Below, piece after piece: positions 2,741 to 56,418 of a stretch of DNA of 64,000 nucleotides. Position numbers and translations under genes: made by a program. The stretch is from a bacterium (GTDB taxonomy: Bacteria > Bacillota > Bacilli > Lactobacillales > Streptococcaceae), in assembly GCA_905221505.1 (NCBI GenBank), contig CAJNDL010000002.1, positions 43,922 through 107,921 of the forward strand. Direction: 5' to 3'. Positions within the stretch are counted from its first letter, which is position 1, and every line of letters starts with the position of its first letter. A model generated the notes under the pieces. That model made no database searches and was not told the origin of the DNA. It saw nothing but the letters and a program-made list of their open reading frames with translations.

Positions 2741-4102
2741 ATGAATCCTAATCTTTTTAGAAGCGTCGAGTTTTATCAGAGACGTTACCATAACTATGCG
2801 ACAGTGTTAATTATACCTCTTTCATTATTATTTACTTTCATCTTGATTTTCTCCCTTGTTGCCACAAAAGAAATTACTGTTACTTCCCAAGGAGAAATCG
2901 CCCCTACAAGTGTCATTGCATCTATTCAGTCAACCAGTGATAATCCTATCCTTGCTAATCATTTAGTGGCAAATCAAGTAGTTGAAAAAGGGGACTTACT
3001 CATCAAATACTCTGAAACAATGGAAGAAAGTCAGAAAACTGCCTTAGAAACTCAATTACAAAGACTTGAGAAGCAAAAAGAAGGACTTGGAATTTTGAAA
3101 CAAAGCTTAGAAAAAGCGACTGATCTTTTTTCTGGCGAGGATGAATTTGGCTACCATAATACCTTTAGGAATTTTACTAAACAATCCCATGATATTGAAC
3201 TGGGTATCACAAAGACTAACACTGAGGTTTCAAATCAAGCCAATCTTGCCAATAGCAGTTCATCAGCTATTGAACAAGAAATCACAAAAGTTCAACAGCA
3301 GATTGGAGAATACCAGGAGCTGAGTGATGCTATCATAAATAAAAGGGCTCGCTTACCAACTGGCAATCCGCACCAGTCAATTTTGAATCGTTATCTTGTA
3401 GCCTCACAAGGACAAACACAAGGAACTGCAGAGGAGCCATTTTTATCTCAAATTAATCAAAGTATTGCAGGTCTTGAATCATCTATCACAAGCCTCAAAA
3501 TTCAGCAAGCTGGTATCGGAAGTGTAGCAACTTATGATAATAGTTTAGCAACCAAAATTGAAGTACTCCGCACACAGTTTTTACAAACAGCCTCACAGCA
3601 ACAACTAACCGTGGAGAATCAATTAACAGAATTAAAAGTACAACTAGATCAAGCGACACAGCGCTTAGAAAACAATACCTTAACCGCTCCAAGTAAAGGT
3701 ATCGTTCATCTGAACAGCGAATTTGAAGGTAAAAATAGAATTCCAACTGGTACAGAAATTGCTCAAATATTCCCTGTCATCACAGATACAAGAGAAGTAC
3801 TAATCACTTACTACGTATCTTCTGACTATCTACCTCTACTAGATAAAGGACAAACTGTAAGATTAAAACTGGAGAAGATTGGAAATCACGGCATTACCAT
3901 CATCGGCCAACTTCAGACAATTGATCAAACTCCTACCAGAACAGAGCAAGGAAATCTCTTTAAATTAACCGCTCTTGCAAAACTATCTAATGAGGATAGT
4001 AAACTCATCCAATATGGCTTACAAGGTCGCGTCACTAGTGTAACTGCAAAGAAAACATATTTTGATTATTTCAAAGATAAAATTTTAACCCATTCTGATT
4101 AA
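2741..4102 (+). CDS. blpB: BlpB, accessory protein of the BlpA exporter
   Basis: This 453-aa protein is the membrane-fusion-like partner of BlpA, homologous to ComB of the competence exporter. One N-terminal transmembrane helix (about residues 20-42, ATVLIIPLSLLFTFILIFSL) precedes a long extracytoplasmic region. That region has two coiled-coil stretches, around residues 95-125 and 165-330, flanked by a lipoyl/HlyD-like fold (EIAPTSVIAS... and LTAPSKGIVH). The SD AAGGAG lies just before the ATG. blpA and blpC are adjacent in the same orientation, so the BlpR-activated transcript covers all three. Confidence 0.93.
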   Translation: MNPNLFRSVEFYQRRYHNYATVLIIPLSLLFTFILIFSLVATKEITVTSQGEIAPTSVIASIQSTSDNPILANHLVANQVVEKGDLLIKYSETMEESQKTALETQLQRLEKQKEGLGILKQSLEKATDLFSGEDEFGYHNTFRNFTKQSHDIELGITKTNTEVSNQANLANSSSSAIEQEITKVQQQIGEYQELSDAIINKRARLPTGNPHQSILNRYLVASQGQTQGTAEEPFLSQINQSIAGLESSITSLKIQQAGIGSVATYDNSLATKIEVLRTQFLQTASQQQLTVENQLTELKVQLDQATQRLENNTLTAPSKGIVHLNSEFEGKNRIPTGTEIAQIFPVITDTREVLITYYVSSDYLPLLDKGQTVRLKLEKIGNHGITIIGQLQTIDQTPTRTEQGNLFKLTALAKLSNEDSKLIQYGLQGRVTSVTAKKTYFDYFKDKILTHSD

Positions 4103-34771: not shown

Positions 34772-35575
34772 TTATCCCAAAACCAATTCATCACTGACCA
34801 GACTTTGGCCACTATTTTTCTGGAAGAGATGCATGAGGTCTTCAACTGTCAGATGCTTTTTCTCTTCTCCTTTTACATCCACCACTATCTTACCCTGATA
34901 GAGCATAATGAGACGATTGCCGTATTCAATCGCATGGTTCATATCGTGGGTAATCATCAGAGTAGTCAACTGATGGTGCTCCACAATCTTTCGCGTCAAG
35001 TCCATCACCATTTGACTGGTTTTCGGGTCAAGTGCCGCAGTGTGTTCATCCAAAAGCAAGAGCTTAGGTTTCACCAAGGCTGCCATGACTAGGGTCAAGG
35101 CCTGTCTTTGTCCTCCTGAAAGGTATTGAGTATCCACTTTCAAGCGATTTTCAAGACCGATATTCAACTCTTTCAATGCCTCTTGGAACTGGATTCTGTC
35201 CTTTTCCTTCACGCCCCAGCCAAGTCCTCTCTTTTGTCCACGTCTCAAGGCAATGGCCATATTCTCCTCAATCGTCAAACGAGAAGCTGTCCCCATCTTA
35301 GGATCTTGAAAAACACGGGCAATATCCTTGGCTCTCTTTCGTACACTCAGATTTTTAATGGATTTCCCTTCCAACAAAAGGTCCCCTTCGTCCACAGATA
35401 GATTTCCAGCCAAGATATTCATCAAAGTGGATTTCCCTGCGCCATTTCCACCAATCACAGAGATAAAATCTCCCTCTTCAACCTCTAAATCTAATCCTTT
35501 GAGGACATGGTTCTCATTGACCGTCCCTGCTTCAAATGTTTTGTGAATATTTTCAAGTGTTAACAAACTTGCCAT
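34772..35575 (-). CDS. ABC transporter ATPase of TrpXYZ-type system
   Basis: The 267-aa ATP-binding subunit has Walker A GGNGAGKST, Q-loop VFQDPKMGT, signature LSGGQRQAL, Walker B LLLLDEHTAALD and switch His in ITHDMNHA. It resembles LivF/LivG-type ATPases. It is the third gene of an operon with permease and binding protein, whose relatives are called TrpXYZ or ABC_sub_bind systems. The substrate is not proven; the operon leader suggests aromatic amino acids. Confidence 0.88.
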   Translation of the reverse strand: MASLLTLENIHKTFEAGTVNENHVLKGLDLEVEEGDFISVIGGNGAGKSTLMNILAGNLSVDEGDLLLEGKSIKNLSVRKRAKDIARVFQDPKMGTASRLTIEENMAIALRRGQKRGLGWGVKEKDRIQFQEALKELNIGLENRLKVDTQYLSGGQRQALTLVMAALVKPKLLLLDEHTAALDPKTSQMVMDLTRKIVEHHQLTTLMITHDMNHAIEYGNRLIMLYQGKIVVDVKGEEKKHLTVEDLMHLFQKNSGQSLVSDELVLG

Positions 35576-35587
35576 AACTTTCTCCTC

Positions 35588-36481
35588 CTATTCATTTCTC
35601 AATTTCAGACCACGAATCTTTAATCTCTTTTGCAATTCTGGTGCAAATAAAACTAAAGCGAGCAAGATTGCATTAAAGAGACGTACCAAGTTTTGATCTA
35701 GATTTGGGATTTCATAGATATTTAAAATAATCAAACGGTAAACAATGGCACCAATTCCGATAGATAACAAGCGACCTCCAATGGTCAAGTCGTGTATCAA
35801 GACTTCCGCAATAATGACTGCACTCAAACCAACAACGATTGTTCCTGTCCCAGAAGTCACATCTGAAAATCCATCATTTTGAGCAAACAAGGAACCACAT
35901 AGGGCAATCAAACCATTTGAAATCATGTAACCAACAATCTTCATGGTGTCTACATTGACCCCATTGGCCTCACTCATAGGAATATTGTCCCCAGTCGAAC
36001 GCAAGACCAAGCCAATCTCTGTTTTCATCAAAAGAGTCAAGACCAAACAAACAAGTAAGAGACAGGCCAAACTGAATGAGAAAACAGCTTCTTCATTTGT
36101 CAGTCCCAAGCTAGCCAACTGTTTAAAAACAGTTGAAGAATCTCCCAAGGAAAGATTGGGCACACTTCCCATGATTTTAATATTGATTGAATAAAGCCCT
36201 GTCAAGGTCACAATCCCTGTCAAGAGAGCTGGGATTTTCATCTTGGTGTGGAGCATTCCTGATACAAGACCTGCTCCCATACCTGCTAGCAAAGCAAGTA
36301 AAGTCGCAATCCAAGGATTTGTCCCTGCCTGTATCTGAGATGCGACGACAGCCGCCCCCAATGGAAAGGCTCCTTCAGCAGTCATATCCGCAATATCCAA
36401 AATACGGAAAGTCAAGTAGACCCCAATGGCCATAATCGACCACAACAAACCTTCTGATAAACTAGATAATACAAAACTCAT
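35588..36481 (-). CDS. ABC transporter permease of TrpXYZ-type system
   Basis: The 297-aa permease of the BPD_transp_2 (LivH-like) family has about eight to nine helices (LLWSIMAIGVYLTFRIL, LLALLAGMGAGLVSGML, ACLLLVCLVLTLLM, GTIVVGLSAVIIAEVLI). The conserved TVEGAFPLGAAV-like motif reads MTAEGAFPLGAAVVAS. It lies 11 bp after the binding-protein gene and 12 bp before the ATPase gene. Confidence 0.88.
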   Translation of the reverse strand: MSFVLSSLSEGLLWSIMAIGVYLTFRILDIADMTAEGAFPLGAAVVASQIQAGTNPWIATLLALLAGMGAGLVSGMLHTKMKIPALLTGIVTLTGLYSINIKIMGSVPNLSLGDSSTVFKQLASLGLTNEEAVFSFSLACLLLVCLVLTLLMKTEIGLVLRSTGDNIPMSEANGVNVDTMKIVGYMISNGLIALCGSLFAQNDGFSDVTSGTGTIVVGLSAVIIAEVLIHDLTIGGRLLSIGIGAIVYRLIILNIYEIPNLDQNLVRLFNAILLALVLFAPELQKRLKIRGLKLRNE

Positions 36482-36492
36482 CTTAAACCTCC

Positions 36493-37470
36493 CTATTCCT
36501 TGCTTTCTAACTTACTAATATCAATTCCTAGTGCATCTGCCATTTCTTGATTGGTATGCAATTCCAATTTTTCAGGCAACTCAACTGCTATATTTTCTGG
36601 CTTCTCACCTTTTAAAACACGAATCAACATGCGGGCTGTCTGCCGTCCCAATTCTTCATAATTGGTACCGTAGTTATACAAGCCACCAACCGCAATCATT
36701 TCTGTTGAACCACCAAATACTGGAACCTTGTGTTTAATAGAAACCTGCTTAACTGTTTCCATGGTTGACGAAATGATATTATCCGTTGGTACAAAAACCA
36801 TATCCACCTCTGCCATCAAGCTTTCTGCAGCCGCCTTAACGTTGTTACTGTCCAAGATTGTTTTTTCAACAACGGTAAAGCCTTTTTCTTCCAGAAGGCG
36901 CTTAGCTTCATCCTTTTGGACAACCGAATTGGGCTCACTCTGAGTATAAAGAATTCCAATTGTTTTAGCTTTTGGCAACACTTTCTTTATCAAATTGATT
37001 TGGGTTGAAATGGCATCTGATGACTGATCGCTAGTCCCGGTCACATTTCCCCCAGGATGCTCTCTTGACTCAACCAACTTGGCACTGACAGGATCTGTTA
37101 CCGCTGAAAAGATAACAGGTGTCGTTTGTGTTGTATTAGCCAAGCTCTGAGCAGAAGGCGTTGCGATGGCTAGAACGACATCACTAGATTCTACTAGTTG
37201 CTGGGAAATGGTTTTTAGATTTCTTTGTTCTCCCTGTGCATTTTGCAAATCAATCTCGATATTTTTCCCTTCAATATAGCCTTGCTTGGCCAGCTCATCC
37301 ACAAAACCTTCTCTAGTAGCGTCTAGGGACTGGTGGGTAATAAACTGCGAAATACCGATACGAAACACATCTTTTTTCTTATCTGCCTTCAACTGATGCA
37401 AACTGATCAGAGAGGTCAAGAGGATCCCCACTACCAAGAGGGGGGCTAGTAATTTTCGAACAACTTTCAT
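36493..37470 (-). CDS. ABC_sub_bind substrate-binding protein (TrpX-like)
   Basis: The 325-aa binding protein of the ABC_sub_bind (PF04392) family has typical segments DVVLAIATPSAQSLANTT, IFSAVTDPVSAKLV and GILYTQSEPNS. Its N-terminus (basic, then LLVVGILLTSLISLHQLKA) has no cysteine, so it lacks the lipobox expected of a Gram-positive binding protein. It may stay anchored by the uncleaved segment or be released. Expression appears to be controlled by the attenuator at 37613-37838. Relatives are called TrpX and linked to tryptophan, but the leader here encodes Phe/Tyr codons. Confidence 0.85.
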   Translation of the reverse strand: MKVVRKLLAPLLVVGILLTSLISLHQLKADKKKDVFRIGISQFITHQSLDATREGFVDELAKQGYIEGKNIEIDLQNAQGEQRNLKTISQQLVESSDVVLAIATPSAQSLANTTQTTPVIFSAVTDPVSAKLVESREHPGGNVTGTSDQSSDAISTQINLIKKVLPKAKTIGILYTQSEPNSVVQKDEAKRLLEEKGFTVVEKTILDSNNVKAAAESLMAEVDMVFVPTDNIISSTMETVKQVSIKHKVPVFGGSTEMIAVGGLYNYGTNYEELGRQTARMLIRVLKGEKPENIAVELPEKLELHTNQEMADALGIDISKLESKE

Positions 37471-37497
37471 AATGAAACTCCTTCTCAGAAAAGATAA

Positions 37498-37603
37498 AAC
37501 TCAATGAAAATCAAAGAGCAAACTAGGAAACTAGCCGCAGGCTGTACTTGAGTACGGCAAGGCGACGTTGACGTGGTTTGAATTTGATTTTCGAAGAGTA
37601 TAA
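37498..37603. repeat. BOX element (boxA-boxC) in the transporter leader
   Basis: This is almost the same as the BOX at 21571-21676 (ACTCAATGAAAATCAAAGAG ... GATTTTCGAAGAGTATA) and again lacks boxB. It lies between the attenuator terminator and the first structural gene, so it is part of the untranslated RNA when read-through occurs. Confidence 0.9.
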
Positions 37604-37728
37604 AACAAAAAACCGCCTAGATAATACCTAAACGGATGCTTGAAATAATCTAACAAGTTACAACTTAGCTAGTCCATTTAGATATTCATCTATATGGACC
37701 ACAATCAAAAATCTTAGCCACATAGATA
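37602..37728 (-). promoter_or_regulatory. Attenuator: mutually exclusive helices ending in a terminator
   Basis: The terminator is CCGTTTAG (37635-37628) with CTAGGCGG (37620-37613), then TTTTTTGTTTT. Its 5' arm TCCGTTTAG (37636-37628) can instead pair with CTAAATGGA (37681-37673), one wobble, forming an antiterminator. CTAAATGGA also lies in a hairpin with GTCCATATAGAT (37699-37688). That hairpin's 5' arm, CCATATAGAT (37697-37688), can pair with ATCTATGTGG (37727-37718), one wobble. ATCTATGTGG overlaps segments complementary to the leader-peptide codons (TAGATA 37785-37780, TTAGC 37795-37791). The chain fits a stalled-ribosome attenuator. Pairings are read directly; the mechanism is inference. 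Confidence 0.7.
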
Positions 37729-37778
37729 CAAACAAATTGCTTGAACTGTTTGCATCCATGGTGACATGTCTACAAACA

Positions 37779-37838
37779 CTATCTAAAGTAGCTAAAGTAA
37801 AAGTTTTGATTCATAATTACAGCTTGTCTTTTATTCAT
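37779..37838 (-). CDS. Aromatic-rich leader peptide (19 aa)
   Basis: The ORF encodes MNKRQAVIMNQNFYFSYFR and stops. Five of the last seven residues are Phe or Tyr, none is Trp. It starts about 26 nt after the predicted transcription start. An internal ATG (37814) would give an 11-aa version. The ribosome site is weak (AGAAAG upstream). It precedes the attenuator helices, and its last codons are complementary to attenuator region 37713-37728, as in phe/his/trp-type leaders of other bacteria. Confidence 0.65.
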   Translation of the reverse strand: MNKRQAVIMNQNFYFSYFR

Positions 37839-37870
37839 TTCTTTTTCTGCTTTCTTTTTTGATGTTTCCT

Positions 37871-37899
37871 ATCTTACCACCTTTTTTATCAGCTGTCAA
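37871..37899 (-). promoter_or_regulatory. Promoter of the TrpX-type transporter leader
   Basis: On the minus strand, TTGACA (37899-37894), 17-bp spacer, TAAGAT (37876-37871). Transcription would start near 37864, giving a leader of about 390 nt before the binding-protein gene. Confidence 0.82.
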
Positions 37900-37975
37900 G
37901 AATATTTCAGAATTTTTTAAAATTTTTCGAAAATTCTTTCAAGGCACTTTCAAAGTTTTTTCAAATCAGTCCAAC

Positions 37976-38025
37976 AAAAAAAGGTTTATAATTTCCATAA
38001 AAGTTGACATGGAAATTATAAAACC
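37976..38025 (-). terminator. ami operon terminator
   Basis: GGTTTATAATTTCCAT (37983-37998) pairs with ATGGAAATTATAAAACC (38009-38025) with one bulged A; on the minus strand it is followed by TTTTTTTGTTGG. It lies just past the amiF stop. Confidence 0.93.
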
Positions 38026-38029
38026 ATTA

Positions 38030-38956
38030 TTAGTTTAAACCTTGTTGGTAACGCGCTAATTCGGCTTGGTTAGCCCAAACATAGTGACCTGGACGGATTT
38101 CTACCATAGATGGCTTATCAGTCTCATAGTCGTGTTGACTTGGGTCGTATACCTTCAAGACCTTCTTACGTTCCAAGATTGGATCTGGGATTGGTACCGC
38201 TGAAAGCAAGGCTTGAGTATATGGATGAATTGGATTGTTAAACAATTCTTCTGTTTCTGCAACCTCTACAATAACACCCTTGTAAATAACTGCGATACGA
38301 TCTGAAATAAAACGAACGACCGACAAGTCATGGGCGATAAAGAGATAGGTCAAACCAAGTTCTTTTTGGAATTTTTTGAGCAAGTTCAAGACTTGGGCAC
38401 GTACAGAAACGTCCAAAGCTGAAATTGGCTCATCTGCAATAACAAAGTCTGGTTGCATAACCAAGGCACGGGCAATACCGATACGTTGACGTTGACCACC
38501 TGAGAATTCATGAGGGTAACGAGTCAAGTGCTCAGCAAGAAGACCTACTTCACGGATAATATTTTTAACCTTCTCTTTACGTTCTTCTTCATCCTTAAAC
38601 AAACGGTGATTGTAAAGACCTTCAGAAATAATATAATCAACAGTCGCACGTTCATTCAAACTTGCTGCAGGGTCTTGGAAAATCATCTGGATACGACGAA
38701 TCAATTCCGCAGCTTGTTCACGCGATTTCTTACCATTGATCTTTTGACCATCAAAAATGATATCACCATTACTTGTATCATTTAGACCAATAATGGCACG
38801 ACCAATAGTTGTTTTCCCACTACCTGACTCACCTACAAGCGAGAAGGTTTCTCCCTTGTTGATAAAGAAGTTGGCATTTTTGACCGCGACAAACTTCTTA
38901 CTTCCTTCACCGAAGGAAATTTCTAAATCTTTGATTTCTACTAATTTTTCAGACAT
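38030..38956 (-). CDS. amiF: AmiF, oligopeptide ABC ATPase
   Basis: The 308-aa OppF-type ATPase has Walker [10 protein letters not shown], signature FSGGQRQRI, Walker [13 protein letters not shown] and the C-terminal oligopeptide-family extension ([16 protein letters not shown]). It energises the AmiCD permease together with AmiE. ATG 38956 ([10 protein letters not shown]) follows GGAGGAAGG; the longer reading to 39025 overlaps amiE without a ribosome site. Last gene of the operon. Confidence 0.95.
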
Positions 38957-55083: not shown

Positions 55084-56418
55084 GGCTCTTTGTCAACTGT
55101 AGTGGGTTGAAGAAAAGCTGAGATCTAGAAAGGACAAATTTCGTCCTTTCTTTTTTGATATTCAGAGCAATAAAAATCCGTTTTTTGAAGTTTTCAAAGT
55201 TTCGAAATCCAAAGGCATTGCGCTTGATGAGTTTGATTAGATTATTGGTGGCTTCCAATTTAGCATTGGAATAGGGTAACTGAAGGGCATTGATGATTTT
55301 CTCTTTGTCCTTTAGAAAGGTTTTAAAGATAGTCTGAAAAAGAGGATGAACCTGCTTTAGATTGTCCTCAATGAGTCCGAAAAATTTGTCAGGCTTTTTA
55401 TTCTGAAAGTGAAACATCAAGAGTTGATAGAGATTATAGTGGTATTTCAAGTCTTCTGAATAGCTCAAAAGTTTATCTAGAATCTCTTTATTGGTCAAGT
55501 GCATGCGAAAAGTAGGGCGATAAAAACGTTTATCGCTGAGCTTCCGACTATCTTGTTGAATGAGTTTCCAGTAGCGCTTGATAGCCTTGTATTCATGGGA
55601 TTTTCGTTCAAACTGATTCATGATTTGGACACGAACACGACTCAAGTGTTGGACAATATGGAAACGATCAAGAACGATTTTAGCACACGGAAAAAGCTAT
55701 TTAGCTAAGTCAAAGTGATTTCGAATGATAGCTTGTGTTCTGCCCTCAAGAACAGTGATGATATTGAGCTTGTCAAAATCTTGTGCAATGAAGCTCATCT
55801 TTCCCTCGGTGAAGGCGTACTCATCCCAAGACATAATCTCAGGAAGGCGAGAAAAATCATGCTCAAAGTAAAAATCATTGAGCTTGCGAATAACAGTTGA
55901 AGTTGATATGACCAGCTGATGAGGCAATATCGGTCATAGAAGTCTTTTCAATCAACTTTTGAGCAATCTTTTGGTTGATGATACGAGGGATTTGGTGATT
56001 CTTCTTGACGATAGAAGTTTCAGCGACCATCATTTTAGAGCATTGATAGCACTTAAAACGGCGTTTTTTCAGAAGGATTCTGGTAGACATACCAGTCGTT
56101 TCGAGGTAAGGAATCTTAGATAGTTTTTGAAAATCATATTTCTTCATTTGGCTTCCGCAATCAGGACAAGTTGGAGCCTCATAATCCAGTTTAGCGATGA
56201 TTTCTTTGTGGGTATCTCTATTAACGATATCTATAATTTGGATATTAGGGTCTTTGATATCGAGAAGTTTTGTGATAAAATGTAATTGTTCCATATAAAT
56301 CTTTATAATGAGTTATTTTGTCGCTTTTCATTATAGATCTTATGGGACTTTTTTTCTACAACAAAATAGGCTCTATAATATTCATAGGGGATTTACCCAC
56401 TACAAATATTATAGAGCC
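55084..56418 (-). mobile_element. Decayed ISL3-family element (IS1167-like), 1335 bp
   Basis: The left end (plus) is GGCTCTTTGTCAACTGTAGT and the right end (minus) is GGCTCTATAATATTTGTAGT. They share GGCTCT and TGTAGTGGGT, the ISL3-type terminal repeat. The flanking 8-mers (cgtagatt and gaatatca) are not a target duplication. The transposase is broken (see pseudogene). The right end also forms a 14-bp perfect hairpin (GGCTCTATAATATT 56369-56382 with AATATTATAGAGCC 56405-56418). Confidence 0.85.
55119..56294 (-). pseudogene. ISL3-family transposase, frameshifted and interrupted
   Basis: The reading starts MEQLHFITKLLDIKDPNIQI with zinc-finger CPDCGSQMKKYDF and CYQCSKM (ATG at 56294). The frame shifts near 55925 (after TSMTDIAS), then continues TSTVIRKLNDFYFEHDFSRL. 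After TQAIIRNHF about 23 residues expected in this family are missing, and an amber codon follows DLAK at 55699-55697. The same frame continues LFP...AKIVLDRFHIVQHLSR to KKERTKFVLSR. The normal stop is lost, so the frame runs antisense into the yidC 3' end. It cannot make active transposase. Confidence 0.88.

Follow-up and report, generated by a model that had tools for sequence, protein, structure and literature searches.

The minus strand of the window (the whole 64,000-nucleotide stretch of Streptococcaceae DNA that was analysed, from contig CAJNDL010000002.1 of assembly GCA_905221505.1) carries, from 37899 to 37602, a promoter-like site, a 19-codon open reading frame (ORF), a series of mutually exclusive complements and an intrinsic terminator, followed by an ABC transporter operon. 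Comparison of sequences strongly supports this element as a leader-peptide attenuator. It is a real, probably ribosome-controlled attenuator inside a codon-swapping family. As the best explanation, we consider it highly probable that it senses a shortage of charged Phe and Tyr tRNA and belongs to a Bacillota family in which one scaffold is kept while the codons are exchanged. An initial annotation had proposed a Phe/Tyr leader-peptide attenuator ahead of a TrpX-type ABC operon. Its parts (promoter-like site, 19-codon ORF, exclusive segments, terminator and TrpX-like operon) were re-read and confirmed, and the proposal itself was supported by the comparisons given below.

Layout of the leader and its operon

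The promoter-like site TTGACA-17-TAAGAT with TGn (37871..37899, minus strand, as are all features of the leader and operon) matches the consensus at 10 of 12 positions, by sequence match only, and places the predicted transcription start near 37864. Taken alone this match is weak because two promoter-like sites were found where 1.8 were expected; for terminators, one was found against 0.4 expected. The leader ORF, MNKRQAVIMNQNFYFSYFR, was read directly at 37779..37838 (19 codons plus TAG) and ends in FYFSYFR. Its first sensor codons, F-Y-F, lie at 37802-37794 and are followed by S-Y-F-R. No Shine-Dalgarno sequence of the kinds scored was found at the leader start in the window's species group.

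Downstream pairing was described with eight segments. Segment L is the end of the leader ORF (37779..37805), in which TAGATA was read directly at 37785-37780, and pairs with c in the predicted OFF state. Segment a (TGTTTGTAGACATG, 37765..37778) lies directly 3' of the stop codon and pairs with b (CATGGATGCAAACA, 37747..37760) in the ON state. In the OFF state b pairs instead with c (TTGTTTGTATCTATGTGGCTAA, 37714..37735), through the stretch 37735-37721. Segment c, in which ATCTATGTGG was read at 37727-37718, can thus pair with L or b (OFF) or with d (ON). Segment d (GGTCCATATAGAT, 37688..37700; CCATATAGAT read at 37697-37688) pairs with c (ON) or e (OFF), and the anti-terminator segment e (ATCTAAATGGAC, 37672..37683) with d (OFF) or f (ON). 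The intrinsic terminator f:g (CCGTTTAGGT / ATCTAGGCGG, 37613..37635) is followed by T6GT4 at 37612-37602; TCCGTTTAG and CTAGGCGG were read directly at 37636-37628 and 37620-37613, T6GT4 standing after the latter. The 263-nt leader folded at -72 kcal/mol (z = -4.92), and none of 200 shuffles was as low.

T-box covariance models gave no match at gathering score in the whole window or at E ≤ 10 in 37400-38030; a T-box identity for the leader was rejected on both thresholds, in line with the earlier statement that no T-box core is present. A second ORF of 17 codons, MSPWMQTVQAICLYLCG (37714-37767), overlies a, b and c. Similar ORFs occur in all of the loci L001-L036 and are mostly absent from more distant Streptococcus loci; they may be a by-product of the RNA pairings. 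Elsewhere in the window, Rfam RF02822 (Srn266) matched 56307-56418 with 117 bits.

The operon begins with a TrpX-like substrate-binding protein (ABC_sub_bind, 36493..37470), which scored 333 bits with NF041285, below the TrpX cut-off of 390. A permease (BPD_transp_2, 35588..36481) and an ATPase (ABC_tran, 34772..35575) follow, both recognised by domain match. Approximately 105 bp between the terminator and the first gene (within 37490-37601) resemble a mobile pneumococcal repeat of RUP type. Among named loci whose TrpX is 94-99% identical to that of the window, the distance from leader to gene was approximately 205, 295-311 or 354-358 nt, as if this RUP-like piece were present, absent or altered. 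A tree was built quickly for 134 substrate-binding proteins, each assigned a leader type according to the search that had yielded it (55 Trp, 79 Phe/Tyr); some of its branches are long. Leader type changed once in this tree, at a branch whose SH-aLRT support is full, and none of 500 shuffles needed so few changes. The window protein falls in the Phe/Tyr-leader half. As a prediction, the 'TrpX' operon of the window would carry Phe/Tyr, not Trp.

Leader peptides and the genes behind them

Following blastn with the window leader, matches were obtained in 99 of 197 Streptococcus genomes and none in the remaining 98. In G093, one of the 99, and at second places in three other genomes, only a short piece before the sensor codons was matched. 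The 88 Streptococcus loci compared have an ORF rich in Phe and Tyr that ends at a conserved position (FYFSYFR, RYYFSFFR, YFYGYFR, YYYFSFFR, EFEFSFFR and similar). In L072 it reads YFYSYF, the arginine being lost. At L083, two leader-like matches lie approximately 1.67 kb apart on one contig.

Two Rfam families were used to reach further leaders in 198 Lactobacillales genomes. At E ≤ 1, RF02863 matched 112 of them, 48 above its cut-off, and 69 of 70 fetched loci encode peptides of the [FY][FY](F)S[FY]FR type. RF04312 gave hits in 188 at E ≤ 1, many of them weak (41 above cut-off), and an upstream ORF with Trp was present in 70 of 70 fetched Lactobacillales loci (typically WQNWRR or WQSWRR), all of them high-scoring hits (E 3e-13 to 7e-6). 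Each set of 70 comprised 30 loci supplied by the search and 40 picked from the high-scoring end; Streptococcus places among the RF02863 hits were left aside when picking. Of the 70 Trp ORFs, 67 of 67 were found by script, each with a Shine-Dalgarno sequence, and three (L091, L119, L182) came from earlier listings. Because the RF04312 model starts downstream of the Trp ORF, the ORF was not selected by the search, although the script did seek Trp: scripts run on RF04312-found sets required or preferred Shine-Dalgarno ORFs, and that for the Trp set required Trp. At L221 a Phe/Tyr leader is interrupted by an in-frame stop, with the RNA scaffold kept and a DAHP-synthase-like start behind it.

A terminator was located 140-220 nt past the leader end in 114 of 116 Phe/Tyr leaders from Streptococcus and RF02863 loci. 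This set contained the window, 86 loci of L001-L090 and 29 RF02863 loci; the total is 116 because L072 and L081 failed the peptide pattern and L086 and L087 hold no leader. An ATG-started frame of at least 8 codons was found in the leader frame of 140 of 141 distinct Phe/Tyr leaders, compared with 0 and 3 in the other frames. A Shine-Dalgarno sequence preceded 112 of these 141 and none in the other frames; the 29 that fail the test include the window's group. For 61 distinct Trp leaders the corresponding numbers were 60 open frames (59 with Shine-Dalgarno) versus 5 and 2 (0 with). Of the 141 Phe/Tyr leaders, 128 encode Y or F 21 nt before the stop and 139 do so 18 nt before it. From -15 onwards the residues partly reflect the peptide and DNA patterns with which the loci were collected, and the first Trp of the Trp leaders is given by the definition of that set. 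The position of the stop codon itself varies, FYFSYFRYCL and WQSWRRSLYR each being directly followed by a stop. A short ORF rich in codons of the putatively regulated amino acid was found by these comparisons.

Behind the 70 Trp leaders, a TrpX-type protein was present at 62 loci and a TrpB-like start at five (TrpB confirmed for L096), with three unclassed. Behind the 70 RF02863 loci, a TrpX-type ABC gene was present at 41 (at L227 recognised by its permease), and the other 29 mostly have AroE- or DAHP-synthase-like starts (L131 and L200 confirmed). Downstream genes of these and of the clostridial loci below were classed by blastp to the window proteins or by protein start; NCBIfam or Pfam was run on 27 downstream proteins. 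A further list of 80 named loci, among at least 118 stretches, includes S. pneumoniae, S. mitis, Enterococcus, Tetragenococcus, Vagococcus, Atopobacter, Aliicoccus, Clostridium, Eubacterium and Terrisporobacter. The Shine-Dalgarno test was passed by 57 of these 80, and at one of them (L265) the leader start was not found. Genes behind the 80 also include aroC-tyrA, aroK, DAHPS-pheA, NSS and BrnQ. Behind Phe/Tyr leaders there is thus a TrpX paralogue, or else aroE, DAHP synthase, aroC-tyrA, aroK or DAHPS-pheA.

Leaders with other codons came from RF04312 searches at relaxed scores; these covered eight genomes to which named loci had led, and in one clostridial family they gave matches in 33 of 146 genomes. 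In the eight-genome search, 17 of 20 loci were examined (L356, L367 and L368 were left out); L353 and L354 are Trp leaders of enterococci and were entered in no count. Five loci (L398-L400, L355, L361) were dropped as weak RF04312 matches lacking the scaffold or a sensor leader. The codon types found were His runs (LHHHHHR, IHHHH), Leu runs (NLLLLANL, RVLLLLAEL), Phe (FFFNSQFR) and Tyr (YYYNYYR). Among 55 clostridial loci, the gene behind each of the 11 His leaders is hisS-like (8 loci), hisZ-like (2) or of the polar amino-acid ABC type (1). NCBIfam hisS was above cut-off in seven of the eight (L366, L376, L380, L381, L389, L392, L394), hisZ was the best family yet under cut-off in L357 and L369, and hisG was above cut-off in L357, which shares its genome with the Terrisporobacter locus L256. 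The eight Leu leaders all lie ahead of one NSS clade, and the 36 leaders of Phe/Tyr type precede NSS (22), TrpX-type (9), BrnQ (3) or other (2) genes. Of the last two, L379 starts like BrnQ, and at L409 the ORF in this position is reverse-transcriptase-like, as would be seen after insertion of an intron behind a Phe/Tyr leader. In the NSS tree the Leu label occupies one side of a branch, while Phe-only, Tyr-rich and mixed labels intermingle; labels changed 8 times in all, compared with a least possible 3 and a shuffled mean of 17.0. As far as sequence can tell, codon identity matches the downstream pathway, and the clostridial NSS and BrnQ transporters could be given substrates from their leader codons. 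In another Bacilli family, L441 has a leader-like ORF ending in YYYFGWFS (Tyr, Phe and Trp codons) with a transketolase-like start behind it.

Alternative helices and the position of the ribosome

Leaders were cut into L and a to g, and the duplex energy within species was compared with that of 2000 re-pairings between species. In 65 Phe/Tyr leaders, L:c, a:b, b:c, d:e, e:f and f:g each beat all 2000 re-pairings, and none of eight unpredicted control pairs was significant. Left out were L140 and the two of 116 leaders lacking a terminator in range; for d, the anchor puts the segment in the wrong place in a small number of leaders, L037 and L143 among them. Segments a and b shared as many as 6 nt, and with the overlap removed a:b and b:c still gave 0 of 2000. 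In 54 dereplicated Trp leaders (L091, L119 and L182 left out; a and b overlap in 4 of 67), L:c, a:b, b:c and the terminator again beat all re-pairings, the pairing of c to the terminator, counterpart of c:d, was weak (28/2000), and the lowest count among eight control pairs was 60/2000 (L:b). In 51-52 clostridial leaders (L366, L394 and L414 left out for L:c), L:c, a:b and b:c beat all re-pairings, and two controls gave 107 and 907 of 2000. His-type L paired best with His-type c (-14.7 versus -10.3 to -13.2 kcal/mol), c changing with L.

Across codon types, 40 leaders were aligned, none from Streptococcus; ATCTATG of segment c is invariant among them. On this alignment RNAalifold picked a:b unprompted, with two-sided changes in 9 of 12 pairs. 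For a:b, 92.1% of cells were paired (80.2% in shuffles and at most 46.2% for slid partners), with 62 two-sided cells versus 19.2 in shuffles. For b:c the values were 90.4% versus 87.1% and 25 versus 10.2, and the number of pairs with two-sided changes was not unusual (4 versus 2.8; 78 of 500 shuffles). The shuffles leave relatedness in place, and the control pairs and slides serve as guard.

The chain of five helices proposed initially is therefore incomplete: its segments are present, but a (37778-37765) and b (37760-37747) had been left out, and a:b and b:c compensate too. Its second helix, c:d, stands as a complementarity, though in the Phe/Tyr set compensatory change is absent, 1400 of 2000 re-pairings being as good; for its third, the segments exist and the range quoted (37699-37672) covers both arms rather than one. 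The comparison of orthologous leaders, which the initial annotation had proposed as a check, otherwise came out in its favour by sequence: the ORF and its frame are conserved (140 of 141 distinct leaders), and L:c, d:e, e:f and the terminator f:g compensate alongside a:b and b:c. An anti-terminator and a terminator that exclude each other were found 3' of the ORF, e:f and f:g both compensating. Judged by these changes, the compensating helices are alternatives, not one fixed aptamer fold.

The switch point was scanned in silico, from structure only. In short, RNA was removed up to a moving ribosome edge and the sequestration of f was computed before g exists. The edge was taken 13 nt past the first base of the A-site codon, an assumed value; 12, 14 and 15 nt gave the same picture. 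For the 65 Phe/Tyr leaders, sequestration of f was 0.70-0.75 with edges -10 to +4 nt from the stop, lower upstream (0.53-0.60 at -30 to -14) and at +8 to +16 (0.57-0.59), and climbed again when the edge covered b. The high zone is where the A site would be occupied by one of the three successive aromatic codons or by a codon near them; the stop codon belongs to the low zone. Means were 0.74 at aromatic codons, 0.58 at the stop and 0.56 upstream; aromatic exceeded stop in 56 of 65 leaders and upstream in 52 of 65. The 67 Trp leaders gave 0.60 at the first Trp, 0.42 at the stop (53 of 67 lower) and 0.50 upstream (48 of 67 lower). Clostridial leaders, scanned with L408 left out, gave 0.66 versus 0.51 at the stop for His (9/11), 0.85 versus 0.70 for Leu (5/7) and 0.84 versus 0.55 for Phe/Tyr (32/36). 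The modelled P_on contrasts are thus moderate, with exceptions, and in the model the structural switch point agrees with the sensor codons in most leaders.

For the window's own leader, f was sequestered at 0.91-1.00 for edges -22 to +8 and at approximately 0.6-0.7 for +10 to +16; since it is sequestered at nearly all edges, the contrast with upstream codons is weak, and that with the stop remains. The full-length terminator probability of the window was 0.86 at edge -30, 0.01-0.07 at -12 to -4, 0.70-0.87 at -2 to +16 and low again from +22. For full-length RNA at equilibrium, the terminator was kept in most species of the Phe/Tyr set (mean P(f:g) 0.83-0.94 at all ribosome positions), so the switching effect would depend on timing, f being judged before g is made.

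Operation of the leader can be proposed as follows. A ribosome waiting on the consecutive aromatic codons would cover L and leave a free; a:b, then c:d, then e:f would form, the terminator would be blocked and the transporter operon read (ON). With aromatic tRNAs charged, the ribosome would get to the stop codon and cover a too; b:c, d:e and then f:g would form and transcription would end (OFF). After release, or when the leader is not translated, L:c would hold c off d, again giving OFF. Through a:b and its rival b:c, a ribosome on the aromatic codons can be distinguished from one at the stop. Of this scheme, we infer the starvation signal, the ribosome footprint geometry and the c:d step.

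The same strong RNA structure (window leader z of -4.92) would also suit a riboswitch, in which the RNA binds an aromatic amino acid or a precursor and the ORF is incidental, and gbs1262/gbs2033 (PMC4448216) and the trpB motif (PMC11109978) have been read in that sense in print. We consider this very unlikely. Among distinct leaders the ORF is open in one frame in 140 of 141 (Phe/Tyr; other frames 0 and 3) and in 60 of 61 (Trp; other frames 5 and 2), the sensor codons (Trp, His, Leu, Phe or Tyr) vary together with the gene behind them, and the helices that compensate do not describe a single aptamer.

Nascent-peptide sensors of the type of TnaC and SpeFL offer another reading, in which free Phe/Tyr would be bound by the peptide inside the ribosome tunnel, making the ribosome stall at the stop. 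The C-terminal [SG][FY]FR is strongly conserved in the Phe/Tyr set, as this reading would have it, although it is partly fixed by locus choice and the L:c pairing also demands conservation near the stop. The position of the stop varies (FYFSYFRYCL, WQSWRRSLYR), simple runs (HHHH, LLLL, YYY) make up the sensor and change from operon to operon, a ribosome at the stop sits in the lower zone of the scan, and plenty inducing import would be odd logic; a sensor of this kind is accordingly very improbable. Most doubtful of all is a trans-acting small RNA with the terminator as its own 3' end and the ORF and operon as mere neighbours, which would account for the Northern blot bands of E. faecium sRNA_2410 (PMC5593968) but not for identified downstream genes that nearly always serve amino-acid transport or synthesis and match the leader codons, nor for the compensation of anti-terminator e:f. 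A second role of the short RNA besides attenuation may exist.

Family extent and relation to known systems

The full RF02863 (sRNA_2410) model covers window 37795-37618 with 56 bits (E 2.1e-8); as the gathering score is 61, the window element is by that rule a relative of RF02863 and not a member. RF04312 (trpB motif) matched 37696-37601 with 29.1 bits, well below its gathering score of 59. A covariance model, R1, built from the 40 non-Streptococcus leaders, found the held-out window element at 37808-37713 with 66.7 bits (E 1.1e-12). Its next-best window match, at 3772-3859, was weak (20.4 bits, E 0.05). At E ≤ 1e-4, R1 matched 25 of 250 genomes of the class, six of them outside the order; the latter matches include FYFSYF ahead of DAHP-synthase-like genes and an HHHH leader ahead of hisZ- and hisG-like genes, all named by their starts. 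At the same threshold RF04312 matched one of 249 genomes of the phylum, and at that sensitivity the element is therefore no general feature of Bacillota. By sequence comparison the family reaches at least into Lactobacillales, other Bacilli and Clostridia, and its sensor codons are exchangeable.

More broadly, it appears likely that one ancestral attenuator has been repeatedly reprogrammed in Bacillota by swapping its sensor codons together with a matching c, making it a codon-addressed counterpart of the T-box, that riboswitch-candidate and small RNA entries, together with a published pair of 'riboswitches', are its pieces, and that the codons can label the substrates of unassigned transporters. 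The codon set in that reading is Trp, Phe/Tyr, Phe, Tyr, His and Leu, from streptococci, enterococci, other Lactobacillales, other Bacilli and Clostridia. Leader-peptide attenuation requires a ribosome close behind the polymerase. Transcription and translation have been reported as uncoupled in B. subtilis (Johnson 2020, as cited in PMC7858274). An attenuator of this type, if widespread among other Bacillota, would lend itself to studying how they maintain coupling.

The initial annotation knew of no description of this leader; relatives have, however, been published. RF02863, taken by name and length to be the sRNA_2410 of E. faecium, resembles the window element by its full-length match and by the Phe/Tyr peptide at 69 of 70 loci; it is filed as a small RNA, and the part of PMC5593968 available names no leader peptide or attenuation. 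RF04312, the trpB motif, shares the b:c hairpin, the terminator and the TrpX/TrpB genes. It was presented as a strong riboswitch candidate, classic attenuation being a possibility that its authors could not rule out (Narunsky 2024, PMC11109978); the model starts downstream of the Trp leader ORF, and no leader peptide is named in the accessible text. The 5'UTR elements gbs1262 and gbs2033 of S. agalactiae (2015), with short and long transcripts, were read as aromatic amino-acid riboswitches and lie ahead of paralogous ABC operons, with further cases at aroFBC-tyrA and trpB; the word 'peptide' occurs 0 times in the main text (PMC4448216). From that text they are very probably the Trp and Phe/Tyr types of the window family, and would by inference add to the published relatives. 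A leader-peptide attenuator would explain, in a way that can be tested, both a published strong riboswitch candidate and an orphan small RNA family, and the hunt for a trpB motif ligand may therefore be misdirected.

Leader-peptide attenuators of Bacillota have been described before. His-leader attenuators were predicted in Peptostreptococcaceae (C. difficile kin), Erysipelotrichales and the B. cereus group (accessible parts of PMC9413887 and PMC2965389). They share His runs ahead of his genes, Terrisporobacter included, with the family described here; they were treated separately, lineage by lineage, and in those parts are not joined to the trpB motif or sRNA_2410. The Leu-rich ilvD attenuator of S. 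aureus, for which mutant evidence exists, is likewise leader-peptide attenuation in a Bacillota and was compared by mechanism (PMC5794164). In the open-access literature searched, no paper was found that joins these families or names the Trp and Phe/Tyr leaders, and the codon-swapping family as a whole was found to be unrecognised there. The enteric attenuators, six-segment his and four-segment trp, work by a relay of exclusive helices, end-product codons and an intrinsic terminator. The window element resembles them in these three features of design; as a point of difference, its family keeps the scaffold sequence and changes the codons.
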